Below, piece by piece: positions 1-16,333 of a stretch of DNA of 64,000 nt; the first letter of the stretch is position 1, and every line of letters starts with the position of its first letter. The stretch is from positions 1-64,000 of the forward strand of contig JAJTUQ010000019.1 of NCBI GenBank assembly GCA_021399445.1, in the 5' to 3' direction. The notes below the pieces were generated by a model that was not told the origin of the DNA, did not search any database, and saw nothing but the letters and a program-made list of their open reading frames with translations. This DNA comes from Xylogone sp. PMI_703. Lineage: Eukaryota; Ascomycota; Leotiomycetes. A program made the translations under genes and the position numbers.

Positions 1-1
1 G

Positions 2-2150
2 AAAGAAGAATTTCGAATAGACCCACAAAAAGTGGCTAATATCAAAGAATAGCCTGAACTAAAGAATGTCAGAAATATTTAGGTATTCAAAAAATTATAC
101 AATTTCTATAAGAAGTATATTCACAAATTCTCGAACATTATAGTATCATTAAATGACTTAACCAAGAAAGACTGAGAATTCAAGTTCGAAAGTAAAGAAC
201 AAGAAGTATAACAGAAACTCAAGGACTAATTCGATAAAAGAATAATCTTGATAATATTTTAAGCAGGACTATTAACGAGAATCGAAGCAAATACATCGAA
301 CGAAGTATTAAGAACAGCTCTAAGTTAACTGTATCTTAACAGAAGATAAAGAATAGTAGCCTTTTACTCAAGAAAGTTTATCCTAGCAAAAAGAAATTAT
401 AACATTTATGACAAAGAATTATTAGTTATCATAAATATATTTAAGACCTAAAAGATATACCTCCTGGGATCAGAGGTAGAAGTATTTACAGATCACCATA
501 ATCTAAGATATTTTACTAATACTAAGATCTTGAACACCAGACAAACTAGATAGTCAGAAGAACTTATATAATATAATTTTAAGATAAGATATATCAAAAG
601 AACTGAAAATGCTAAAACAAATACATTTAACAAAAAACTAAACTACATAGAAAAAGCAGAGCCAGAAGCTAAAACTATCTTCAAGAAAGAAGAAAATAGA
701 ACATTAATATATAATCACTTAGCCCAAGGAACTGCAGATTAGGAATTTGACATAGAATAAACGAAGAAAATAATCTAGGTTATCAAACATAAAGTTAAGG
801 AAACTAAAACCTTATTCCAGAAGCTAAATCCAGACAATAAATAAGAGGAATCTATTGAAGAACCAAGAATATAATTTTACAACGAGAGAATTTATATACC
901 ATAATCTTTAATCAAGAAATTTATTAAATACATATATAATTCACTATTACATGGACATCAAGAAATCGTAAAGATGTACAAACTTCTTAGCCTAAAATTC
1001 TATATACTTAAGTTACGAAAAACAATATAAGAAATCATCAAAATATATGATATATATCATAGAACAAAACTAACATAAAGAATTATATATAAATTACTAT
1101 AATTATTAGAAGTACTAAAAAGACTATAAGAGTTAATAATGATAAACTTCATAGTAGACTTATCATCATCACTAAGTATGAACAACAAGATCTACGACAA
1201 AGTATTGATAATCATAGATAGACTAACTAAGTATAAGATTTTTATACCATGGAAAAATACTTATATAACAAAATAATTAATAAATATACTCATGAACAGA
1301 GTATTCATGATATTTAGATTTCTAAAAAAAATCATCTCTAACAAAGATAAGTTATTTGTATTAAAGTTTTAATAAGTACTCATTATTATGATGAAAATCA
1401 AAACTAAGATAATCACCAAAGGATAAGCATAAACTGACAGAAATACTGAAAAACTAATTCAGACATTTAAACAATATCTTAGGACATATATTAATTATTT
1501 ACAAGATAATTAGGTTAAGTTATTATTAATAATATAATATATATATAACAAAGTAAGATATAATAATATATAAATATTACTTTATTATATAAATTTTGGA
1601 AAAAAGATAAGTATAATATATTTGTAGAAAAAAATATTTAATATAATAATAATAATAAAAGAAAAAGTTAAGCTCATCAAGGAAACATAAGCAGTTATAC
1701 AACAGAACCTAGAGAAAGTCAGAGAAAGAATAAAAAAATATTATAACAAATAACATAAAATAAAACTTATGTTTAAGAAAGAAGATAAAGTATACCTTTT
1801 ACAAAAATTCATCAAAACTAAAAGACCAAACAAATTACTAGATTTCAAGAAGATAAGACTACTAGAAATTGATGAAATGTTAAAACAAATAATGTATAAG
1901 CTAAAATTACTTAAAGATACTAAAATACATTTAGTATTCTATGTTATCATACTAGAACAAGTACTACCAAAAATACCAGTAATCATATACCTAAAAGTAA
2001 AAAATCTTAACCCAGAAAAAAAATACAAAATGAAAAATGTAAAAAGACAAAAGATTTTCAGAAAGAAAGTTCAGTATCTGATCAAATGGAAAGAATATCC
2101 AGAATCAGAAAATACCTAGGAATTAACAAAAAAACTCAAGAACATTTAGT
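2..2150 (+). pseudogene. RIP-mutated gypsy pol: RT C-terminus, RNase H, integrase, chromodomain
   Basis: A single reading frame starting at base 2 stays in register for 2.1 kb. It reads EEFR..DPQKV..IKE, then a stop at 50-52 (TAG) where the family has Trp, then N..NFY.KYIHKFS typical of gypsy RT. RNase H follows (YDKELLVI, then FTDHHNLRYF), then the integrase zinc-binding and core region (LLHGHQEI; the second Cys pair appears as Tyr, a TGC to TAC-type change), and finally a chromodomain with YLIKWKEYP near 2071-2100. Many in-frame stops occur and I found no frameshift. The stretch 1769-2119 is the longest stop-free part and should not be called as a gene. Confidence 0.9.
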
Positions 2151-2180
2151 GAAAAGTTCAGGAATTTAAGGCCAGACATA

Positions 2181-2639
2181 CTAAGTTAGATTGTCCAGCG
2201 TTAAATCATTAGAATAAATCTGATCAAAAGCTTCAAAAAGATTAATAATCTGGGAGTTCGAGAAAATAAGGTTATTTAAGGAAATTATGACTATATAGTC
2301 AGAAACTTCTTGCTCAGTACACTCCTTCTTTTCGGTAATATTTAACTTATTTAAAGTTTTTAAACTATAACGAATTATCTCTTTAGTATATTTCTGCAAA
2401 AACTTTCTTTGTTTCCTTAAACAAGCAAAATGAATAACATTTTCGGTTATAACTTAAGTAGCCTTCTCCTCCTCGGCCTCGAGGTAAGCTTTCTTTTGAT
2501 CTAAAGTGTTTTAAGAAGTCATAGGGATATTCTCATTATTATACGTTTATTGACATAAAACATATTCATTATAATAATTCGACTTAAGAACCATCTTACA
2601 AACCTTATTATTATAGGCATAAAACGTATAAAAAGACAT
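2181..2639 (-). pseudogene. Antisense ORF relic inside the gypsy element
   Basis: On the minus strand, between the chromodomain and the 3' LTR, a frame runs from an ATG at 2639 to a stop at 2181 (152 codons plus stop). It has only three internal stops, all TAA, as C to T change of CAA would give. The frame starts MSFYTFYAYNNKVCKM and keeps GC-rich, coding-like codons in the middle (LEAEEEKA near 2460-2485) within otherwise AT-rich DNA. The product is not recognised. It may be an accessory antisense gene of the element or a chance open frame. Confidence 0.45.
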
Positions 2640-2843
2640 TTTGACTTTATAAATCTAAATATAAGCAGAAAAATTTATAACTTTTTGGTATTTTCGTGAT
2701 TTCTTTCTTTTTACTGTTTTACCCTCTTCAGAATATAAACATTTGAGTAATATGATGGAAAAGAAGAAAAGTCTAAAGAATAATGAGATTGTTCTTATTT
2801 TAATTTTAAGTTTTGGGACAAAGTTAGACTAGAAGGAGAATAA

Positions 2844-3241
2844 TGTCACAAACCACACACAGATGAGGTCAGGCCTGAGGCTCAGTAGCAAAGGCTACAC
2901 AAAGAACCTGACATTACCCTAAGTCACGTGATAGACCCGAAGGACCTAAGGGGTCCAGGGGGTCCACGGACCTGGAGGACCTGGGAGGTCCAGGGGGTCC
3001 ATGGACCTGGGGGACTTGGGGGGTCCAAGGGGTCCTGATATATTTTATTAAATATATAAACCAAACAATTACTTAGATAAAAGCCTCATGTTTAACTTAA
3101 TATACAGATTATTACTTATATAATTATAATTATAATTATATACTATATTATACTAATCCCCGAGCTCTTACCAACCCCCTTACGACCTAATATATACCTG
3201 TACATTCTATAGGACCTAGGTAAAGGCTTAGGTTTGTAACA
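2844..3241 (+). repeat. 3' LTR of the gypsy element
   Basis: The 398-bp LTR is bounded by TGTCACAAACC at 2844 and GGTTTGTAACA ending at 3241. These are inverted copies with one mismatch, which is itself a C/T transition. The purine-rich AGAAGGAGAA lies just upstream, as expected of a polypurine tract priming plus-strand synthesis. Inside are an AT-rich half with TATA-like sequence and a GC-rich block at 2941-3036 made of repeated GGGGTCC and GGACCT units. Confidence 0.75.
2941..3036. repeat. GC-rich GGGTCC/GGACCT repeat block in the LTR
   Basis: Short direct and inverted units of GGGGTCC and GGACCT are packed over about 95 bp. They include the perfect 12-bp palindrome GGTCCATGGACC at 2996-3007. 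The block could fold into several hairpins. It contrasts sharply with the AT-rich, RIP-altered DNA on both sides. Confidence 0.7.
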
Positions 3242-5183
3242 GATTTTATGTAAAAGTAATTAATTATTTAATTTTTTTTGTCAATATTAAGTAAGCCTAG
3301 GCTTGAATGCTTTAGCGAGAATAATAATGGAAATCTAACATTTTAGTTATAATAATATAGTAATCCATAATTGTGACGAAACTCAAATGATAAGTATAAA
3401 AACAAAATATAGAGGGAACTTTTATGAGTACTAAAAACAATGAAATACAAAAGTAAGAACAGAGTAAAAACGAAGGTGTTACAAATTACACTCAAGTTTA
3501 CCTTTATTGTTTAAATTAGTATATTACTAGTATATGTTAATAATAGTGAACTGTTATAAATTAGTTCTAATTCCCTTATGGGCGATAATAGTGGTTATAT
3601 GTAAACAAATAACTAACGCGATATTGACGGATTAGTTATCATATCAAAGTAGCCTTAAGGGTTTCTCAATAAGTCAGCTTTTGGTCTGAATACTTGTCTT
3701 TTATATTTCTATAATCGGGATTATCTTGATTATTATACTTATCACTCGTCGTGCTGTTCTTCGATATATCTTATGGTTTATAAAGTTTAAGAATTTTCAC
3801 TAAAAGGCAAGAGGAGGTTATGATAGATTTAGATTGGTTATACAGCATCTACAGCCCGATTCCTACTGTTACATTAAGTTTATTGCTATAACGTAGACGA
3901 TTTGTGAGGGTGGGTTCGTATATACATTAACCTTAATCAAACGGTTGTTTGTCAGCCTGACACTATTAGAATGATCTACAACACTGAGATAAATTTCAAG
4001 GAGACTAAACATCGTTTCTGTTTTGGGGTTATGATAATCGCGCCGGTGATACTCGCAGTTAAAAGACGACGTGGGGCTTTGTGGAATGTCTAGTAAATGG
4101 AATGTGTTTTCCCTCATCGATTCTTTACCAACAGCATCATGCAAGCAAAAAGCGTATGGTATTCAGTTAACAATTAGTTGCATGTCTTGTTTTGTTTGAA
4201 CTATTTGTCGGTTTCACCATGGGCGGATCTATCATTCTGGATGGAATGGATAGATTTGCAGCTGTTGCGCGGGCGGCGGGTGTTCTCAGGTAGCTGCCGT
4301 AGCACGCCATTGATATCGTGAGGAGAATTGGAGAATTGGCCTCTCGCAACATCTTAGCTACTCCAATGAGAAGAGAAATACTAATGACGCTTTGCAAGGC
4401 CTCAAAATTAATTGGGCCGGGGAATTACTATGGAACAGGGATCGGAGATGGGCGTATTTTAGAACCAATGAAACGAACATCGTTCCCTTGTATTAGAAAT
4501 ATATAACTTTAAAGAGGCTATGTTACATCAATCGTCGGCCAAGCATGTCTGCGGCCAACTTTTTGGAAACTCGCGCTGTTCGTAATCAAGATAGGTAAAA
4601 TATGTTCCAGCTGATACACCAATTTGACGGGGTGGTTGGTGTATGTACGTTAACGCATTTCATCTGTCACATTTACTTGTTTTTATTACGAGCAGAACCA
4701 ATTTTCAGCTGATGCAGAATTAGCCCCACCGCGAGGCTATTACTGTAAGAGAAGCTCTACATGATTAACCAAGGCGAGCGTTTCCCCGAGGATGCCCAGA
4801 GCATTATTCCCTGGCTTAAAGATTGCCAAGCCTGCAGACCGTTCCGAAAGAAGAAATAAGTTTCATCCAAGCTTCGGCTAAAAATCAATGCTCTGGGGAT
4901 AGTCCAGTACGACACCGTGCATACCCGTAATCCATGGCCCTTGCGGATCACGCCCTTCCTCGCATCCATTCACCCACTCCCAACCTCCCTCTTTGATCCA
5001 GGATCGTTGAAGTAAGCTCCGTTCCGTGTGGGAAAGTCTCTCGCGCGGTATCATCCTATCTGTGCTGCCGTCCATATCTGTGGCCTTGTCCTCAGCCGTC
5101 TTACTTCACTCCATCTGATAACCCTCCCATCCATCCCGCCGTGCTCGTTTCCCCAAGATACCCGTCTTTGCCCATCCCTCACC
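3242..5183. other. Intergenic; AT-rich flank of the retroelement, then promoter DNA
   Basis: From 3242 to about 3850 the DNA is AT-rich like the element. From 3850 to 4600 there are only short open stretches on both strands with no recognisable domain. From about 4700 the composition becomes balanced and forms the presumed promoter and 5' UTR of the gene starting at 5184, with pyrimidine-rich stretches near 5080-5180. I see no gene I can support. Confidence 0.5.
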
Positions 5184-7052
5184 ATGAGTGAGACCGGTCG
5201 TCACAAGGCCTGCACGTCCTGTCGAGAGCGGAAGATCAAGTGTGATGGTGGACAGCCTAGGTGTCGTCGGTGTGCGCGCTCCAATGCGCAGTGCTTTTAC
5301 GCGTCGCCCTCGAAGAGGTTCAGCAAGTCCGATGTAGCGTCCAAGCTGGAAAACCTCCAAGCCCGAGTGCGTGAGTACTCCCTCAAATATCTTGTCTTGC
5401 ATCGCAGCTGCGACTGACGAATCTGCTGTGTAATAGAGCAAATGGAGCAGGAGAAGCTCGCCAATGCACTTCATGGTGCACGAACAATTGCGCCCGCGAC
5501 GTCGCGGCCAGTGTATCCCACGTGGCTTCCTCCAACATCATATGGCTCCGAGAGCTTTGCCACTCCTGACTTTGCCCACAGCCTCTGTCTCTATCCCGGA
5601 TTGAGAGAGCATTCATTGCCCACTCCAGGCCCACCAGCTACGCTGGATCCACCATCATCTGAGATGGTGATGTTTTGCTCGGATTCGGGAAGTGATGGGA
5701 GACACGAATCCCCCAATGGCCAGGTTCTGAATCCAGACAGTAGTACCGCGACGAAGGAAAATCCCATAATTCCAGTTCACACGGATGACAGCTCTGTAGA
5801 CCCTGGCATGGCTCATAATTCCGACTTTTCTGAAATACTGGATGATCAATTCGGTTTATCGCTTGAGTGGCGGAGTAATGACACAACTCATGCGCCCTCA
5901 AAACACGACAGTGAGTTTTCTAGACTAGCTAGCAATGCTCATTCACCCCGTAGTAGGAAAAATAGCCAATCTGGTACACCGCAACGCTTCTCGGTGAGGC
6001 GTTCATCCTCAGCCTACGGAACTTCTTCTAACTATGGCACAACTGCACTCTCCAACACATTGGATAATTTTGAACTTGAAAATTCCACTGCCCCGAGCTA
6101 TCCCATGACCCAAAAACGTCGTCGATTGCACATTGGCGGTGGTGGTTTGCAGGGTTTCGGGTATGCTGCTGGAAACTACAATACGGGATATTTTGATATC
6201 AGTCTCGAAAGTAATAACATATCAACCACTTCACAGCAACACAGAGCATCACTGTCTATTACGCAGAGCAATCAAGACTTACCATCTAACGCTAACGCCT
6301 CTTTCACCACCTATTCAAGACAACATTCTATATCTAATGAAGGTCTTCTCTCGCCTATGTCATTCAAGTCTCTGTCGCCTTGTACTAGTTCAATGCGTCG
6401 TAATATTGGCAATGGCATGGCATTCAACGGGATTGTGAAGCTCCGTGGTAAGGAGAATTATCAGGAATGGTATCGAGCTGTTCGGGCTGCGGCTAGGAAG
6501 GAAGGTGTTTGGGACATGTTAACAGGAGACTGTTCCCGGCCTCATCCACCTGGCCCTGGAGCAAGTTTGGCTGAGCAACAAGAATATCATGATAATATAG
6601 TATACTGGAACAGTAAGAGCGAACTAGCCTTGGGCGGAATTGAGGGTAGCCTAGAGAAGTCTGCGCAGGCGTCAGTAGATAACATTGAGTGTCCGCGAGC
6701 CATGTGGCTTAAACTCGAGCGCGATTATAACCCTCTTGGGACAAAGGTCCTCTATGATTTAATGCAGAAGCTTGATACATTAAATCTGAGTGGTGACGTG
6801 GAGAAACTGGCCGATGACTTACGAGAACTGAAGAAGAGGATCGATACCCAGAGGGAGGCTGATGCTCTTCCACACTGGTATTATACTATCAGATTCCTGC
6901 GTTCCCTTGCACCAGCGTACGAAGAGTTTGTATCGAGCATGATGGATCGAGACGCTGCTTCGGGGGATGATAAGCATCGGTTTACGGAGTTAACGTTTGA
7001 GCAGGTCGTATCTAAGGCCATGGCGGAGGAGCAACGTCGTAAGCATGAGTGA
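5184..7052 (+). CDS. Zn2Cys6 DNA-binding domain fused to a copia-type Gag (UBN2-like) domain
   Basis: Exons are 5184-5370 and 5437-7052, giving 600 aa. The 66-bp intron is GTGAGT...TAATAG with a CTGAC branch point, and the start is ACCATGAG. Residues 10-37 form a complete Zn2Cys6 cluster (C10, C13, C20, C27, C30, C37), followed by a basic linker and a predicted short coiled coil at about 45-75, the usual dimerisation arrangement. Residues about 80-385 are Ser/Thr/Asn-rich and low in complexity. Residues about 390-595 resemble the Gag polyprotein domain of copia retrotransposons: LRGKENYQEWYRAVRAAA at its start, then W.KLERDYN, a D.L..L.L.G....L...L..L motif, and a final LTFEQVVSKAMAEEQRRK. 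There is no CCHC knuckle, protease or RT after it. The frame is intact, so this looks like a domesticated Gag joined to a transcription-factor head. Its function is unknown; nuclear DNA binding is inferred from the N-terminus only. Confidence 0.85.
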
Positions 7053-8072
7053 ATTTTAAGGAAGGCTTTGATCTTTACTTTACATTTGGTTAAACTACGA
7101 TACACTAGCAGAAGCTAACATATAGGTTAAAACTGTTATAGATACTCCGTAGATGGCGGTGTGTGGTGCATTGTTAGTATTGCACGCCATGAATAGGGAG
7201 TATGCCAATCCACGTAACATAGTCTCAGATTATAATATAGTTCAGTTCGATTTCTACGGTGGTTCAGATAGAAACAACGCCAATCCGCATCCACGAAGCT
7301 TCCCAAACACATGACATAGACAATCTTTCTATGAAAGACCCCACTGACGCTATAGCGCCCGGCACTCTTGACGGCTCGAGACACCGGGTTATATTGAATT
7401 CTAATTTAGCAGGAATGAATACCACCATACAATATCCACTTCAAGAAAAGGCCTCGATGATGTCTGGATGAGGTGCTCTGCAGCCACGTCCAATTCCGCG
7501 CATTCGTATGGCTCCTAAAGACCATGCGGCTGAAAAATTGCGTATCTAACTGAGTGGATACTGTATGTACATACTCTAAACCGTAAAGTATCCCTGTGTG
7601 GTCCGTCAGTTCAAAAAAGCTTTTTGGGTTTGAAATCGCTATGGAGGCGTGATTTTTCAGCTCGAGCTAACACGAACCGTTCCCGGGCCATGATTCCCAC
7701 CGTTCAGTTTCCACAGTGTGGCGTTGCGGAGAACGCCGTGATTTCAAAGCGCGGCCACAACGATCCTGCAGTCCAATATTTAGACGTGCTCATGTACGTA
7801 ATTGCATACAACTATATTCGCAGGCAATTCGGAGGGTCAAAATCGCGCATGAATATAGTACGCTCCTGCTTCAAGGTCGCATTCAGGTAAAGATTAGGTT
7901 AGTTAGAAAGCTGCTGAAGCGTGGACTGGGTGGTAACTTGTCAAATTGCGTACATTCCAACATTACAATTGTATTTGTAGATACGGCTGCTTCACTTCTG
8001 CTCATTTCGTCATTTAACGGTCATTTTAAGTCATTTACAGTAGATGCGATATAGGTTGCATTGACGATTGCA
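7053..8072. other. Intergenic, no gene recognised
   Basis: Short open stretches exist on the plus strand (7259-7471, 7624-7890, 7716-8054), but none has a recognisable motif, supported splice sites or a family match. I take this as the 3' flank of the fusion gene plus unassigned DNA. Confidence 0.4.
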
Positions 8073-8760
8073 CTATCTAGACTGCCTTTGACATGTGCTT
8101 GCCTGAGACAAGTATCTCTGCATATGGGTATGGACGGTGTGAATCTGCCCCAGAATAGCGAGCGAGCGATCGTTCTTTAAAGCCATTGAAAGTGGAATGG
8201 AGCGTCTGTAGAGACGCCACCGGCGCTGTTGTACTTGGTTGCTCTGGGGATTTTTCAAATATGGTGGCTGCGCAATAAAAGGCAGTCTTTGATTTACAGA
8301 TTTATCCGCGGCGACATCATCAGCTTCCCAAGACACTTGATCTTTGAATTTTCTGGCATCTTTATCTTTGTCCCCGGTAAAGAATCGTGGGAGACCAATT
8401 TCATCCTTGAGAGAGTGATTGAACATGGCAAAATGATCCCGCCAACCAGTACAGGCTACCACGAAATCTGCCTCGACATCCTTGCCGGAGGAAAATTATA
8501 GGTGGCCTCCAGATATGCTTAGTGGGTCGTCGGGAACTACGGACACATCTCCTTCATGGAGAGTTTTCCAGAAATTGATAGATCTCGCTATAAGGTTGTA
8601 CTTGGCAGGCCCTTTCCCTTGCGCCTGCTTGATTTATTTAGTATCAATCTGGATAGTTTTCATAGCCATGTCGCACTGGAGATGCTCCAAAGCAGAATAG
8701 AGATTTCGGATAATCGGAACCGAGCTGTTATTGACAGTCCTCATTTGGAGGTCTTATAGA
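8073..8760 (-). pseudogene. Flavin-binding monooxygenase relic
   Basis: The minus strand encodes the C-terminal half of a fungal flavin-containing monooxygenase. It reads INFWKTLHEGDV, then an in-frame stop near 8500, then DFVVACTGWRDHFAMF (the conserved ACTGW/ATGF segment of these enzymes), SVNQRLPF and RRWRLYRRSIPLSM. Another stop near 8640 interrupts the preceding part. Weaker similarity may reach about 9000. The N-terminal FAD motif (GxGxxG) and a start codon are not found. The gene is a fragment, probably a remnant of a Baeyer-Villiger or FMO-type enzyme. Confidence 0.6.
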
Positions 8761-8992
8761 GTTCCCCAGGTAATGAGGAGGCGAGAAAGATGAGAGGTAT
8801 AGTGGTGTCGATGTTGAGATCTATCAGAGCATGGAGAGACATATTGGATTTCTGACCGTAACACATTAACCAGTTTTGATGGATTGAATATACTAGGTTG
8901 AACCAATGGACTCGGTTGAGTTCAAGCGTGCACATGAGCATGATGAAGAGGACAAGGCTTGAGCGCTGAGCTAGGGTGATCTGGCAAAACAT

Positions 8993-9380
8993 AAATGTGT
9001 ATAAATATATATAATTAGAACCGGTTATATAATTACTAAAATTAGCTTATAACACTCTAATGAAATAAATAATATGTAAAAAGAGTATGTATATTACCAT
9101 AAAATAATATTTATATTTTACATCAATTTACTTCATAAAAACAAAACAGTTACTTGATAAACTAATAATTACAGAAATAGTAGAAAAGTCGTAAAAGGCT
9201 CTGAGATTATATTGAAGTAAAAGTATAATTAGTTAATATGTCTAAATTGAGTTAATTGCAAAGATTTCATTGAGTATTGCATAATACTAATTTGTATACA
9301 ACCGCGAGATGTTATGATGAAGGCCAGTATCAGCGGTTTGATAGCAATTTAGTTAAGCCTGGCGGAGATTTAGTCGTGGC
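8993..9380. other. AT-rich spacer
   Basis: Strongly AT-rich sequence with stops in all frames and no recognisable gene. The composition resembles RIP-altered repeat DNA, but no repeat boundary can be seen. Confidence 0.5.
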
Positions 9381-11031
9381 CTATACTAATATTCGAGCTC
9401 GGCCGCCATAAAATGCCCAGAACGCAGACAGTTGTATGACTACAAGGCTGAAAGCAGTGGCTTTTATATCCTTCCATGCTGAGTTAACTAGTTCAACTTT
9501 TGTAGTCAGTTCGTCTGAGGTGCTTCCATTAACATCGTCGTCCCAAAGGATCCTGCCGGTGGAGTATTTGATTGGTAAAAAGTTGATCCTTTCCCCCCCT
9601 TTAATAATTTCTCCAATTGACCGAGCTTCTCTTCCTTCTGGTAAGGCAGTACCCATAAAGCAAAGAATTTCACGATCCGACTATCCCACTCTTGGACCCT
9701 TGTGATTAGGTTAGAGAACTCTATAATCTTTCTCATACGCGGAATGCGTTTGTCTTGGTAGCTTTTAAAAATAGCCTTTAATGCAGCCCGTGACTGTTTA
9801 CTGTCACATATGTGGTGACTACAGGCCGAAGAAGATTAACAAGAAGTGCAATGCTCTCCATTCCTGAGTTTCCACCTAATGCAATATTAGGTGTGACCTA
9901 TCCCGGTTATAGTTAGCTTTCATTCAAACCATAAACAGTAGATATGGAAGTACCTTATGAGTAGCATCACCCACAAGAACAGTCCGTCCAAAAAACGAAT
10001 GTGATAGTATCCCTTCTTCAATGTCGACTATCTGTCCGCGATACTTTCGCCTCCATAGATCTCCAAAGACAAGGGTTTCAGATAGTGGATGGCTTGTAAC
10101 ACTCAACGCAGCTTTTTCAGCATCGGCATCACTCCAGCGGGGATGAGTGTATTGAGAGTATGGCTTTTTAACACGGAAGAAGACAAAGAAGAATATTCTA
10201 TTAGGCCGAGTACCAATCAAGAAGGAATAACCGTCGTTGTGAACACATGACAACTCGTTTCTAAGGGAGGGTTCGCCAGGTCCCATACCAAGTAGACAAG
10301 TCCAAGATGTCATCATAGCTGTCATGTTCTGTTAGTAAATTGATGTTCGCTTGCTTTTTTAAACAGGAATATAATCGATACCTTTTCTTTCCTTAACATT
10401 TAGTATGCCTGGACTAAGTTTATCCATGTTATCCCACATAGCTTGTCGTACAATGCTATGGATTCCGTCGCATCTTATTAAGATATCCCCCTTTTCTGCT
10501 GTACCGTCGGCTAACGATACTTCAACAGCATCGTAAGTTTCTTTGACGGTAGTGACTCGTTTGTTGAAGAGAATTTTCGTTTTATCTGGGAGCTTATCAT
10601 ATAATGTCTGCAAGAACTCTCGGCGCTCGAAAAGCATCAGTTCATACCCATGACTACAAATCATTAGCTGGATAACTCCTCAACAATCGTGTAGGTAATT
10701 CACTTCTTCCTAATTTCGCCCCAGTAGTCATTCTCCAATAGCTCAGTCCCATCCGGTTTTCGATTAACTAGTCGTTCCATAGGAGATGTGATTTTCATCA
10801 TAGCATATAAACAACCAATTTGTTCTAATATCCTAGCTCCATGAGGATATATTGCAATACTGGCCCCGCTGGGAGGACCAGCCTCCTTCCTTTCTCTAAG
10901 ACAACATGATCAATGGTAGCCCTTGTTGGAATGTGGGATGCCACAAGACCAGTAACCCCACCGTCTACGATGAGGACTCGAAATAGTTTGTCCGCGAAGC
11001 TCGTAGTTCCGTTAGATAGAAGGCCAGGCAT
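9381..11031 (-). pseudogene. PaxM-like FAD-dependent monooxygenase, decayed
   Basis: The order of conserved pieces matches the FAD monooxygenases of indole-diterpene and meroterpenoid clusters (PaxM type), which epoxidise prenyl chains. They are: FRVLIVDGGVTGL (the GxGxxG loop with one Gly changed to Asp), IDHVVLEK, GARILEQIG, a region around 10664-10359 with RREFLQTLYDKLPDKTKIL and IRCDGIHSIVR, then WSDADAEKAA, FGDLW, and FGRTVLVGDATHK (the second FAD motif). The C-terminal part continues with RIPRMRKIIE and WVLPYQ. At least three frame breaks are needed to join these: near 10860-10872, between about 9790 and 9835, and in a run of seven C at 9593-9599. The mutated FAD loop also argues against function. 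A GMC fragment lies just upstream on the same strand. Confidence 0.75.
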
Positions 11032-11205
11032 AGTTTAGCAGAGTAGTAGTACGTGTAAGAATAGAAATAAGGGCTCTTTTATTGGGCTACTTGGAAGGGC
11101 GTCTTCTGCTAATTTATTAACACTACCAGATGCCATATTCGTAGAATACGATGCTGGTCAAATGGAATCCATTGCTCCAGACTGGCTGCTAAAATTATGC
11201 ATATA

Positions 11206-11701
11206 TCATGACACTAGGATCAGATCTTGAAAAGTTAACCAACTCACTGGTTGTGGAACAGCCTCTATGTCCCACTCCACTAGTGAGGGACGGCTGTTGT
11301 CGATGTGCGTAGACCATCCATTATAACCCGGAATCTCTGTCAAGTTTTCATTATCATAAAAACTGCCAGCTTCTATGACTGCAACAGAAAATCTTCTTGG
11401 GTCCACTGCCAGCCGAGCAGCAAGAGCGTTACCGACTGTCCCGCCGCCAATAATCTAAGGAAGACAAGATTAGATCTATGCTCAGGAACCGCAACACACA
11501 TTAAGCAAAACTCCGTCTATTCTTGGATCTTTTTTTATTACCACATACTTGATAATCATAGGTTTCATTTACACCCGGAATACCAAAAGAATTTCCCCAT
11601 AGCCGATTGGTCCCATCACGTGATTCTCTAAACCCTGCAAATGCGACGCCACGTTGTAGAGTTGAGTAAAATAAGAGAGTTAGGGTATATTTGAGAGGCA
11701 T
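11206..11701 (-). pseudogene. GMC oxidoreductase, N-terminal fragment
   Basis: An ATG at 11701 starts a signal-peptide-like N-terminus, followed by ETYDYQ. A roughly 90-bp intron then leads to IIGGGTVGNALAARL, the FAD-binding Rossmann motif of glucose-methanol-choline oxidoreductases, with AVIEAGSFY and EIPGYN. The reading stops soon after VPQP. The later conserved GMC elements, such as the GGSS motif and the C-terminal His/Asn pair, are missing; the next gene in the same orientation starts 175 bp on. This is a truncated gene. Full-length members are about 600 aa. Confidence 0.75.
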
Positions 11702-12430
11702 TATTATGAAAAACCGGATGCGAAATGATAGGAGTATTGTGCGATCCGTAGGAAATATCTCAGGTTACGCGACCCTCTGCATGCTGATCACTTGCAGGAG
11801 CTGTTGCCATTGTCTATAACCTCATTCGACTGTGGATAGGTGCCTGAAAGAATAACAGTTGACACCTCAGGTACTAACATCTGCGGCGAACAGACTTGCG
11901 CTTGAATAAGGTTTAGACTCGGTCAGTACGGTCCGCTGCGGGCCGAAATTGCGTGATGATTGGCTGGAGAGACCTAGTCACGCCTGCAAGATCAAGCAGG
12001 GAGTGGAGCGATACTGAATACCGTATACACTCACATTTACCAGAGTTATACCATCAGGGGTGGAACAGACCCTGTGTCAGCAGCCACCCATACAAAAGGA
12101 GTTCATGATCCTGGTATAATCAGCAAAATCTAATACGTGTCAGGCTAGCCTAACTCTGGTAGATGTGAATGTACACGGTACCCGTGACGTTTGGAGCATC
12201 GAAATTCCAAACATGTGATTTCTAGTTCTGATTTCCAATATGAAGTTTCAATATGATTTGTAAACCTCCTGAATATGTAACGCTTTAACTTGGATTTAAT
12301 GCCTTCAGACGTTTTTAGTTTGTTGTAATATTAAATATTCTTCATAGTTTTTTGCTTTCTGGAGTCAGTCAATCATTTTCTTCTTTTTCTATCCCGAGAG
12401 ATTTTCTTGATCCCTAGGGAGCACAAAATT
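11702..12430. promoter_or_regulatory. Divergent intergenic region between the GMC fragment and the DHA2 transporter
   Basis: The 729-bp spacer contains a MITE-like insertion at 12019-12180 (separate entry). The last 250 bp before the ATG are AT- and pyrimidine-rich (TTCTTCTTTTTC near 12375), as is common for fungal core promoters. Confidence 0.5.
12019..12180. mobile_element. MITE-like element with 28-bp terminal inverted repeats and TA flanks
   Basis: The arms at 12021-12048 (starting CCGTATACACTCACATTTAC) and 12151-12178 (ending AGATGTGAATGTACACGG) are inverted copies matching at 25 of 28 positions. All three mismatches are transitions. The 158-bp unit is bordered on both sides by TA, the target duplication of Tc1/mariner-type elements. 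There is no coding capacity inside. I infer a non-autonomous DNA element lying about 250-410 bp upstream of the transporter start. Confidence 0.65.
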
Positions 12431-14285
12431 ATGACGGAACTCGCAGACGAGAAAATACCAACTCCACAGGAGCAGAGTGAACCGGAATCTCTTGTAGGAA
12501 GCAACACTATCGACCCTGAAGCTGAGATTAATAATCTTGCTGAACAAAATGTCGAAGAAAAGACTGCTCCAGCTCTGGATGGGGGGCGTTCCATTCATGG
12601 TTTTAAATGGGTTTTAGCTGTGACTGCTATTCTCTCATCCACCTTTCTGTTTGCGTTAGATACTACTGTCGTAAGTCCACCTAATATTTAAATTGCAACA
12701 TCTTGAAATTTCACGCCAGAAACAACACTAAAAATGTCACTTCTTAGGTTGCCGATATTCAACCTAATATTCTGAATTCTCTGGGCGATTTCGAGAAATT
12801 CCCTTGGCTTGGCGCAGCCTTTGTCCTTCCAGCCGCTGCTTTGGTTCTCCCATTGTCAAAAGCGTACTCACTCTTTAATATTAAATGGCTCTATATTGGA
12901 TGTGTAACTCTGTTCGAAGTCGGAAGTGCTATTGCCGGTGCCTCTCCGACCATGAACGCGCTTATAACGGGTCGAGCGATTGCCGGAATTGGAGGCTGTG
13001 GGATGTATGTTGGCGGTTTGACCTTCTTTTCTGTTATCACGACTCCAAAGGAACGTCCAATATATATATCCCTTGTCACACCAGTCTGGGGAATTGGTAC
13101 AGTGCTCGGACCCATTGTAAGCTTTCTTTCTGCTGTATTATTGCTCTGTCTGATGTATTCTAGGTTGGAGGAGCCTTTGCAGAAAGTAGTGCAACATGGC
13201 GTTGGGGCTTCTACATCAACCTATGCATATTTGCGGCATTTGCGCCAATAATGGTCTTTCTTTTGCCATCTCTTGAATTTCAACCCACCCTATCTGCCAA
13301 ACAAAAGCTCGGCAAATTCGATTGGCTTGGCCTTCTCATATTTACGGGATGGTGCCTTTCCTTCGTCATGGCTTTACAATTCGGCGGCTCATACTATCCA
13401 TGGAAATCAGCAAGTGAGATAGTACTTTGGGTCATGACAGGCGTCCTAATGGTTGTTTTTGTTCTGTCACAAACTTTCCATCCTTTCATCGACAACAGCA
13501 ACCGGCTTTATCCAGCCCATATGCTAAAGAACCTAAAGCTAGGGATCCTACAATTCGCTACATTTTCTGCCTCCTCTGCTGTCTATATTCCGATCTATTA
13601 CATTCCGCTTTACTTTCAATTCGCGAGTGGAGAGTCACCTTTGCCGTCGGCGATAAAGCTACTTCCGTTCGTCTTTATGATTGTGGCTCTTTCCCTCCTT
13701 AATGGTTTCCTCATGTCCAAACTGGGTTACTATATGCCATGGTTCTTTTTGGGTGGAGCTATTGCACTAGTTGGCTCAGCCTTAATGTTTACCGTCGACT
13801 ACAATACCAGTACATCTGCTGTCTATGGATATAGTGTACTAATGGGCATCGGTGGTGGCTGCTTCCTCATGAGTGCATTTGGCTGTGCTTCTGATGTTGT
13901 CGAAGTAAAAGACGTCTTTGACGCTATTGGTGTCCTCTCCGTGAGTCAAGGTATTGGTATAGTTTTCTTTGTCTCAGCTGCTGGAATCGTATTCCAGAAT
14001 CTGGGAGTCAAGTATATTACATCCTTCTTGCCGCCGAATTTTACAGGAAATAAAGATGACATTTTGGCTGGAACTACTAGCGCAGTATACCGGAGTTTTG
14101 ACCCTCAAACCAGAGCTGAGATTGGAGCCGCCATTGTTAAGGCAATGAGTCGAGTGTATGGATTGTCAATTGCAGGAACAGCGATAACGACGGTCATTTC
14201 ACCGTTTCTCAGCGTAAGTGTTCACATTACCTCATTCTGAGATTTACGATGCTAAGTTATTCCACAGAAAGGCAAGGTTGGATAG
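12431..14285 (+). CDS. MFS drug:H+ antiporter (DHA2, 14-TMS type)
   Basis: Exons are 12431-12670, 12748-13116, 13164-14213 and 14268-14285, giving 558 aa with all junctions in phase. About 60 hydrophilic N-terminal residues precede the first membrane segment (WVLAVTAILSSTFLFALDTT, carrying the family's LD.T motif). The segment GIGTVLGPIVGG is the antiporter motif C, and GRAIAGIGGCGMY fits motif B. The rest is a run of hydrophobic helices with a large loop near the C-terminus, as in 14-helix exporters. Members of this family export toxins and drugs from the plasma membrane and often sit in secondary-metabolite clusters. It lies opposite the decayed GMC and PaxM-like genes, so it may be the surviving pump of that cluster. 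The substrate is unknown. Confidence 0.88.
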
Positions 14286-14661
14286 ATATCTAGATAGTAT
14301 TGGAAGAAATACGTAATGGTAGCATGGTTTCCATTACTAAGTAAAATTAGGTGGGATTAAAAAAGTTCTCTGAGGCTAAAGTGAATATTTAAGAGCCATA
14401 AAAGGATATAATAACTTCTCTTCTCTACTTGGAACTTAAGCAATGCGAGGTGCGCTCCAAGGGTGTTTTCAGTTGCCGCATCCACCTTAAGTACAAACTT
14501 CACACTCATAAAATACTTGTCGACAAAATTTCCCGAACTCCGAACTCCCACGTGGCTGTTTTTAATTTATTGCTGTTATCTTGGTAATATCATTCGGTGT
14601 TCACAAAGGGTTAGATTTTTTGTACCCACCATTATCAAAACCAATAGTATCACTCATATAA
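14286..14661. other. Convergent 3' spacer
   Basis: About 375 bp between the ends of the DHA2 transporter and the oppositely oriented DUF2306 gene. It should hold both 3' UTRs. I see no further gene. Confidence 0.5.
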
Positions 14662-15835
14662 TTACGCCTCCATATCCTTAGGCCTCCACTCTTCTGCATC
14701 TCCAAATCTTTCAACAGTCCACCCACCATTTCCAGGTTTTTTGTAACCAGCAGCAAGCTGCCTTTCATAGCTAACTTGACGTAACCTTTGTGCCTCTCTG
14801 GGAGTGAGATTTAGATAAATCTCAACGCCAATCAAATGAACAACTAGACTTATCCAAAGCTAGATTTCATTAGTATATATTTGGTGAACAAAGACGTCAG
14901 TTTAGGAAAAACTCACAGCGGCGCCAAACGGAATACTGCCACTCGCTCCCGCACTTTCTGGTTCCAATACTGAGTGAACAGCTTTAACTACAACTCTTCC
15001 ATCTAGGGTCCCATTAGGAATTAAACATTGTGGATATTTCTTTTCTAATATCCCTTCAATCCCAAACTGGCGGTAGGTGTAATCTATCTGATCACATGTC
15101 CAAACAGTATAATAAGTCCCGATCCGTGATATAATAACAGCTGCTATGTTATCAATTATTCGGCTCGATATGATAACCCCAAAAATGAACATGCTCCTAA
15201 TCATCCATGCTCTGTGCTGATCAATTTGGAGTCTTCTGATGTTCCAATACGCCATGGTCAAGCTGCAAGTTGTCAAAATGACCAGCATAGCTTCAGCGCT
15301 CTGGATGCCAACTCGAGTTCCAGAGTCCGGATGTGGGAGGACGATACATGCTCCAGCATTAGATATTAGGAGTAGAATGAGCACTATGTAACCGTTTATC
15401 CTGTGGAATATAATGGAGAAGTGGCGGATTGCAGGAACAAATTGGAGTACCATGAGAATCCCCGCTGGAAGACATCCACATAGATGCATCAACATTCCAA
15501 CTCGGTAGGAGCCTGAACGAAAGTAATACATATATCCAGGATTAATATTCACGGAGAATATCTTGTTATAGTTGTAGAATTGTAGTCGAGACAGGCTAAA
15601 ACCGAACATGGCACCTGCAAAGATTACATCTAAATGAGTTCAGGTCGTCAGAAAACCTTTTTAATTCGATTCTAGACATTATGATCTTACAGAGAGGGAA
15701 GTTATAAGCTTTGGTAAATCCAAATGCGTTGTACACTCTCTGGTATGTCGATTTCACCTGTGATATCTCGTTCTGGAGACCAGGGCTCTCAGCAGAGGAC
15801 AAGGAAGAATTGGATTCGTTGGTTTCTTTAGACAT
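14662..15835 (-). CDS. DUF2306-type integral membrane protein
   Basis: Minus-strand exons are 15835-15691, 15614-14917 and 14859-14662, giving 346 aa; both introns (76 and 57 bp) are GT-AG and in phase. The start is the MSKETNES methionine. Several membrane helices are visible: HLCGCLPAGILMVLQFVPAI, GYIVLILLLISNAGACIVL, AMLVILTTCSLTMAYW and a last one after the second intron. The conserved-looking pieces HRINGYI and QIDQHRAWMIRS match the fungal DUF2306 family, whose function is unknown. The C-terminus is hydrophilic (WTVERFGDAEEWRP). It is divergent from the SDR at 16334 with a 498-bp shared spacer. Confidence 0.8.
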
Positions 15836-16333
15836 CCTGAAATCTACGAAGCCCGTGTGGGTATTCTTATAGGATATTTTCTTCCCCTTCTCGATCCTGT
15901 TTCTATAAGTGTTGCTGATTATAGATGACGGCAAACTAAAAGCTAGAGGATGGCATCCCCTCTATCATCAGGGCTGCGACAACAATGAAACTTATACTTT
16001 ACATCCTACGTCTAAATAATCCAAATTATTAAATAGAATGCTTCTGATCGTCTCTTGGTACCACTTGTGCAATTATGGGAGTTAACACACCGAGTCTCCA
16101 CTTCATTGCAGAATCGCGGGCCGAGTTTGAGCGCACTATATTGTGGCAATTACTAACATTCCTCCCAGCTTCTAGTTCATGTTCTGCGAATCAAGACCCA
16201 GCTAGCCGATTATGCAAGCTATAAAACCTGGCCTCACTTATTTAACAGATCTTCTCGCTCCGGCGGTGGTTCTATGCTCGTGCCGAACGTACATCTCGGG
16301 CTCTTCTCTCCGCCTTATCCTTGCTAATCAAAG
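15836..16333. promoter_or_regulatory. Divergent promoter between DUF2306 and SDR genes
   Basis: The 498-bp spacer should carry the promoters of both genes. It is balanced in composition with pyrimidine-rich DNA before 16334. No specific binding site can be assigned with confidence. Confidence 0.4.

Follow-up and report, generated by a model that had tools for sequence, protein, structure and literature searches.

In vertebrates, a large class of transcriptional regulators is built from a piece of the Gag capsid and zinc fingers. These SCAN zinc-finger factors combine a zinc DNA-binding module with a domain derived from the capsid of a long terminal repeat (LTR) element, which is used for dimerization. 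In fungi, Zn2Cys6 factors commonly, though not obligatorily, carry the fungal-specific transcription factor domain. In this work, we describe a gene of the ascomycete Xylogone sp. PMI_703 in which the place usual for that domain is occupied by a Gag domain. The stretch of DNA analyzed (the window) covers the leading 64 kb of contig JAJTUQ010000019.1 (C11; 159,137 bp) in a 50.1-Mb genome assembly of 25 contigs. The gene lies at 5184-7052 on its forward strand, from the ATG at 5184 to the stop codon at 7050-7052, and after splicing encodes a protein of 600 aa. We consider it fairly likely, with a probability of about 0.6, that this gene belongs to a small family, domesticated and conserved, that places a Ty1/copia-type Gag capsid behind a Zn2Cys6 head and that acts as a multimerizing regulator or DNA-bridging protein.

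A Zn2Cys6 head joined to a Gag-type domain

Only two Pfam families exceed their cut-offs in the 600-aa protein. The Zn(2)-Cys(6) binuclear cluster at residues 8-45 (5205-5318; all features of the gene are on the forward strand) matches Zn_clus (PF00172) with E=1.8e-10 and 41.2 bits against a cut-off of 21, while residues 415-599 match Retrotran_gag_2 (PF14223) with E=8.1e-14 and 51.9 bits against a cut-off of 27. A preliminary description, made from the letters of the DNA, had proposed an intact, spliced gene of 600 aa with a complete zinc cluster and an intron at 5371-5436; its coordinates are correct, the frame is open, and the cluster is whole.

Exon 1 (5184-5370) contains the start codon, the cluster, and the first part of a predicted coiled coil, and it is followed by a GTGAGT donor at 5371. 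The 66-bp, phase-1 intron (5371-5436) is of the GT-AG type, with a CTGAC branch-like motif and a TAG acceptor. Exon 2, including the stop codon (5437-7052), belongs to a 544-codon open frame spanning 5418-7052. At the 3' end, a further intron of 103 bp is possible (7039-7141), which would account for the ...EEQRHTP end of the public gene model and which the intact frame does not need; without it, the genomic frame ends with ...EEQRRKHE, and either end may be right.

The head together with the segment behind it matches PDB chains of PUT3 (residues 9-63) and GAL4 (residues 8-67), and both matches extend into the putative dimerization segment. This part of the protein, residues 46-70 (5319-5459, interrupted by the intron), consists of a linker and a short predicted coiled coil, with hydrophobic residues at the heptad positions V51, L55, L58, V62, and M65; a comparable segment occurs in the relatives P0003, P0005, and P0015, described below. 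It is followed by a long linker (residues 80-374; 5487-6371), 47% of which is Ser, Thr, Asn, Gly, or Pro. The linker contains a putative nuclear localization signal, KRRR (residues 289-292; 6114-6125), and the motif KR[RP]R is found in nine of the 15 family database proteins as well as in the window protein. No fungal-specific transcription factor domain was listed by Pfam at a limit of E=10, where the HMMER filters drop most matches above 0.1.

For the C-terminal part, a whole two-lobed capsid (CA) fold is predicted, with a pLDDT (predicted local distance difference test) of 83.5. The N-terminal lobe (CA-NTD), residues 390-494 (6417-6731) of predicted structure m0b0f87481b99, aligns to the CA of Copia and is the best-conserved part; its helix 1 carries AARKEGVW (residues 414-421; 6489-6512), the family signature AARKE[GA]VW. 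The C-terminal lobe (CA-CTD), residues 498-599 (6741-7046), superposes at 2.2 Å over 89 residues on the CA-CTD of Ty1-prime (9rxw). The best structural match is Copia CA (8vvw), with 181 residues aligned. In the 50 VIA rows of the structure comparison, rows 1-38 are Gag or capsid entries (row 30 being an HIV-core entry that names no chain), and the capsids of Arc, PEG10, and PNMA2 also appear among these 50. Searched against Pfam and Gag capsid folds, the C-terminal part thus resembles Gag by the PF14223 profile and by its predicted fold. A copia-type, UBN2-like Gag had been suggested for it; the Gag assignment stands, while the predicted structure is that of the whole capsid and not of the UBN2/CA-CTD part alone.

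In agreement with the preliminary description, Pfam lists no protease or reverse transcriptase family for the protein. A zinc knuckle of the pattern C..C....H....C (CCHC) is absent from the protein and from the six frames of 6401-9000, an absence of little weight, as the host copia open reading frame (ORF) also lacks the exact pattern. The lack of a nucleocapsid zinc knuckle and of pol, with a DNA-binding head at the other end, points to a protein that would accumulate at its sites on DNA. Such a protein would enter the nucleus by means of KRRR, its coiled coil would dimerize it, and its zinc cluster would bind specific DNA. By contacts of the capsid type, the capsid domain would then connect each dimer with others of its kind or with partners. 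The outcome would be a multimerizing or DNA-bridging regulator, by analogy with the Gag-derived SCAN domain in vertebrate zinc-finger factors.

Family members, constraint, and the evidence for one gene

Three protein searches, two of which scored capped lists of 7993 and 7992 candidates and one of which scored 3174, gave a family of at least 15 database proteins that share the Gag (P0001-P0009 and P0013-P0018); further members may exist. A search for orthologs with both domains in other Pezizomycotina had been proposed, and relatives of this layout were found: P0003 (Apiospora arundinis), P0004 (Leptodontidium sp.), and P0005 (Apiospora phragmitis) each have both Pfam domains above cut-off in one annotated protein. 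P0015 (Chlorociboria aeruginascens) has the Gag and a cluster cut at the N-terminus (E=3.6e-5, 24.2 bits, cut-off 21), and the zinc cluster is thus above cut-off in 4 of the 15 proteins. The known distribution is patchy; it takes in the Leotiomycetes, with Xylogone and Leptodontidium, and the Sordariomycetes, with Apiospora. AARKE is present in all 15 database proteins and in the window protein, and neither this motif nor LALG..EG.L varies across the 16 aligned rows. The metagenomic relative P0001 aligns over the linker and Gag with 46% identity across 90% of the query. Its frame opens at about the start of exon 2, beginning with EQMEQEKL at the acceptor of the 5371-5436 intron, as expected if the position of the intron is common to both genes. 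One protein search also returned three zinc-cluster proteins without Gag (P0010-P0012; E from 1.3e-3 to 5.2e-3). Scans of viral and prokaryote contigs with the Gag alignment produced 25 and 172 pattern matches, respectively, none of which was confirmed.

When the cluster and the 35 residues after it were compared, the four full members scored 150-226 in all six pairs, and the best of 28 other zinc clusters of the genome scored 108-121 against full members. In the segment behind the cluster, the window protein scored 75 with P0003, 61 with P0005, 48 with P0004, and 46 with P0015, and the pairs P0003-P0005, P0003-P0015, and P0005-P0015 scored 102, 77, and 53, against background maxima of 26-36. 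P0004 scored 35 with each of P0003 and P0005, which is about background, and 20 with P0015, which is below it. For P0015, which is partial, the cluster comparison with P0004 gave 79, below its best background score of 94. The background comprises 28 of 150 listed matches from one genome, 24 of which were used for the segment behind the cluster. Since the head pairs of the four full members score above background, these sequence comparisons fit one fusion event, with one fused ancestor at least for the Xylogone, Apiospora, and Chlorociboria genes.

The Gag appears to be more constrained than the linker. Identity to P0001 is 73% in the Gag (164/225) and 37% in the linker (115/308; Fisher p=3e-16, with sites treated as independent). 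As a protein rate contrast, and not a ratio of nonsynonymous to synonymous rates (dN/dS), this supports constraint on the Gag indirectly.

Several observations weigh against a fused, capsid-bearing regulator. The chief evidence against fusion in PMI_703 is the public model P0007 (F5884DRAFT_150637), which corresponds to residues 286-596 of the window protein, starts at Met286, and has no zinc cluster. No such cluster exceeds the cut-off in 11 of the 15 family database proteins. P0007 is one of these, and eight come from sources labeled ena, lgn, or jgi and are taken to be frames called without splicing; two NCBI models, P0014 (Apiospora sp.) and P0017 (Aspergillus pseudoviridinutans), are not the PMI_703 gene. 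In 4 of the 15 (P0006 and P0016-P0018) the Gag is below the Pfam cut-off. The N-termini of the Aspergillus-type proteins P0016-P0018 are unlike those of the fused members: in 21 comparisons against shuffles made in search of a vestigial zinc head, the lowest had 6 of 200 shuffles as good, against 0 of 200 for five family control pairs. In the structural comparison, the best Foldseek E-value is 2.6e-3, with none below 0.001, and the whole-chain root-mean-square deviation to 8vvw is 14.6 Å, which we attribute to a different hinge between the lobes. Sequence searches of the PDB gave two matches up to E=10 with the Gag domain and five with profile A2, none of them a capsid, so that the identification as a capsid is based on the match to PF14223 and on the fold prediction. 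Moreover, the CTD, usually the dimerizing lobe, is the less conserved one.

P0016-P0018 share the Gag signature, have no zinc head in their models, and may represent a gag-only branch of the family; the Gags of P0017 and P0003 are 36% identical over 194 aligned columns. As these proteins have the Gag behind unlike N-termini, the Gag may have been domesticated before it met the zinc head, or the head may have been lost or left out of the models.

The start of P0007 at Met286 could also mean that the fusion is an artifact of our gene model, in which a fragment of a zinc-cluster gene has been merged with a neighboring solitary Gag. This is very improbable: both domains occur together in three annotated proteins of other fungi, the linker has an open frame that can be aligned with P0001 (the 115 of 308 residues given above), the N-terminus of the window protein compared with that of P0003, zinc cluster included, outscores 200 of 200 shuffles, and the 5371-5436 intron has normal fungal signals.

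The distribution of conserved positions bears on what the capsid does. In 13 of the 16 rows (P0005 and P0006 were dropped for mispredicted stretches, and P0007 as the same gene), 25 of 94 NTD positions and 6 of 102 CTD positions are invariant. It is possible, though we hold it unlikely, that the capsid has become a recruitment or stability module, in which a family-specific NTD surface contacts nucleic acid or a partner protein, and that capsid-type self-association has been lost. The two invariant motifs and the weakly conserved CTD helices would suit such a role. The candidate surface in the model comprises R49, K50, and E51, which are invariant, and R45, which is nearly so. AARKE or AGRKE was found at only two of the 40 Gag loci examined in the genome, both of which hold this gene. 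Against this, the whole two-lobed fold is predicted, and nothing points to a loss of the interfaces. In the Copia capsid, according to the available text of PMC11835246, capsomers have the CA-NTDs as their central spokes and the CTDs at the periphery, and RNA is required for assembly. Zn2Cys6 dimers sitting on their sites might, by virtue of the long linker, let the capsids of several dimers form NTD-centered rings, which would gather distant sites or wrap a locus; such a protein would keep the ring-forming NTD, which p22 lacks and SCAN is not known to have. That capsomer-like rings or small capsid lattices are built on chromosomal DNA, with the capsid as a chromatin organizer, is in our view rather doubtful. 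A multimerizing regulator or DNA-bridging protein remains the preferred reading.

Genomic setting and relation to resident copia elements

The gene is present in a single copy outside any element, and its flank at 7050-12000 is also single copy. It has no signature of repeat-induced point mutation (RIP), with a composite RIP index (CRI) of -0.59, while the CRI is +0.16 at 1-2200 and +0.38 at 2200-4000. This neighboring region holds a RIP-affected dispersed repeat on the forward strand, from 1 to about 3241, with at least 82 matches including itself. Two pieces that stay under the Pfam cut-offs, one of a chromodomain (E=4.9e-5) and a weak one of Tf2 type (E=5.6e-4), make it probably a Ty3/gypsy-type element rather than copia. 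The gene had been described as an open frame beside RIP-killed elements; the RIP-affected neighbor is confirmed, and it is probably not of the copia type. No direct or inverted repeats of at least 40 bp were found in 1-16000.

Remnants of a copia element around the gene were sought and not found: none of the 84 matches to copia reverse transcriptase (RVT_2) listed for the genome is on this contig, and the host copia ORF has no tblastn match in the window at E<=1. An origin as Starship cargo likewise has no support, with none of the 15 DUF3435 matches on the contig. As the gene adjoins RIP-hit repeats and is close to the end of a contig, it might be taken for a recent neutral relic, left by a copia element that landed beside a zinc-cluster exon. 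This is hardly credible in view of an intact frame free of RIP, the lack of a second close copy in the genome, intact relatives with both domains in other genera, and the missing copia matches just noted.

The preliminary description had also proposed that the protein might restrict related retroelements. The fused Gag would then poison copia particle assembly in the manner of Ty1 p22 or Drt2, with the zinc head possibly targeting LTRs. Resident copia Gags are, however, remote from it. Searched against the genome up to E=10, the Gag gave three matches, namely itself, a second at E=1e-4 that contains stops (23% identity), and a third at E=0.025 (22%). In the tree, the stem branches between the family and the resident copia Gags measure 2.5 and 3.88 changes per column. 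This tree contains 23 of 30 aligned rows (six near-duplicate rows from the same genome and P0007 were dropped) and has a midpoint root for drawing; the rows from the same genome are on long branches, and the family's separation is taken from it, its sister group not. Fused members, as labels on the tree, require four changes, a count that carries no information, since 500 of 500 shuffles are as low. In addition, p22 lacks the CA-NTD and Drt2 corresponds approximately to the p22 region, according to the available text of PMC10951436, whereas the window protein retains the NTD as its best-conserved lobe. Resident copia copies are numerous and open and hence not visibly restrained. With a Gag so unlike the resident ones and with the lobe absent from p22 kept best, direct restriction is disfavored, and we judge it decidedly unlikely.

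Among the PF14223 matches listed genome-wide, 38 in number, 12 are in frames of 1626 aa, which are distributed over several contigs (e.g., G000:C14:110000-116900, L068), while another repeat is RIP-hit. These 12 frames suggest that the 1626-aa copia family has been recently active. Another copia-type Gag frame that stands alone, with 203 aa counted from the ATG (PF14223, E=7.7e-15), is located at G000:C1:2628390-2629160 (L042:4391-5161), with no RVT_2 nearby among the matches listed; it is possibly a further domesticated Gag. At G000:C20:1048975-1051431 (L044), two adjacent Gag-like frames have weak DUF4219 and PF14223 matches below Pfam cut-offs; one also has a weak zinc knuckle, below cut-off, and no RVT_2 is nearby among the matches listed. 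Downstream of the gene, frames in 8073-10331 resemble decayed gene remnants, those at 8073-8495 and 9924-10331 having no Pfam match. They are followed by a major facilitator superfamily (MFS) transporter at 12748-14240, whose two overlapping frames indicate that it is spliced or frameshifted.

Comparison with known regulators and capsid-derived proteins

The window protein resembles Gal4/Put3-type Zn2Cys6 regulators in its cluster, linker, and predicted coiled coil, and differs from them in that Pfam lists no fungal-specific transcription factor domain for it. Arc, PEG10, and PNMA2 are likewise host genes with Gag CA folds; they are not of the copia type and are not known to have a Zn2Cys6 head. 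The Drosophila Copia Gag capsid (8vvw; PMC11835246) has the same two-lobed architecture as that predicted here. In contrast to Copia Gag, the window protein has neither the zinc knuckle pattern nor pol, and bears an N-terminal DNA-binding head. Drt2 and Ty1 p22/p18 are built around the CA-CTD, the elements that they restrict are close relatives, and the available text of PMC10951436 and PMC8458377 mentions no DNA-binding domain in them, whereas the window protein has one. The CA-CTD fold of these factors is also predicted for the window protein, and a close similarity to resident Gags was not found in the latter.

Gag domains have been co-opted by hosts elsewhere. Wang and Han 2021 reportedly list 14 gag co-options, some of them fungal and some copia. 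Fungal fusions between hosts and transposable elements were described by Oggenfuss et al. 2024 (PMC10799480), likewise with an element domain joined to a host domain. In its available text, these are mainly helicases, and a PEX14-Bel/Pao gag fusion is cited from Wang and Han 2021; the same text names no Zn2Cys6-copia Gag and contains the word copia 0 times in its main part. Our literature searches, whose scope did not include Wang and Han 2021 and the supplements of PMC10799480, found no description of a Zn2Cys6-copia Gag family. The family, or its Gag, may be among the cases in those two sources.

If the capsid still multimerizes, this family would offer a small, tractable system in which to study the effects of capsid contacts on a DNA-bound transcription factor. 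It would also allow one to ask why the best-conserved part is the NTD, with which some other domesticated Gags dispense. Its counterpart in design is the SCAN factor, in which a sequence-specific zinc DNA-binding module is likewise joined to a capsid-derived domain. SCAN factors use a Ty3/gypsy-type CA-CTD only, together with C2H2 fingers, whereas the window protein combines a whole copia-type CA, as predicted, with a Zn2Cys6 head. Fungi thus appear to have reached a SCAN-like design independently, starting from these other components.
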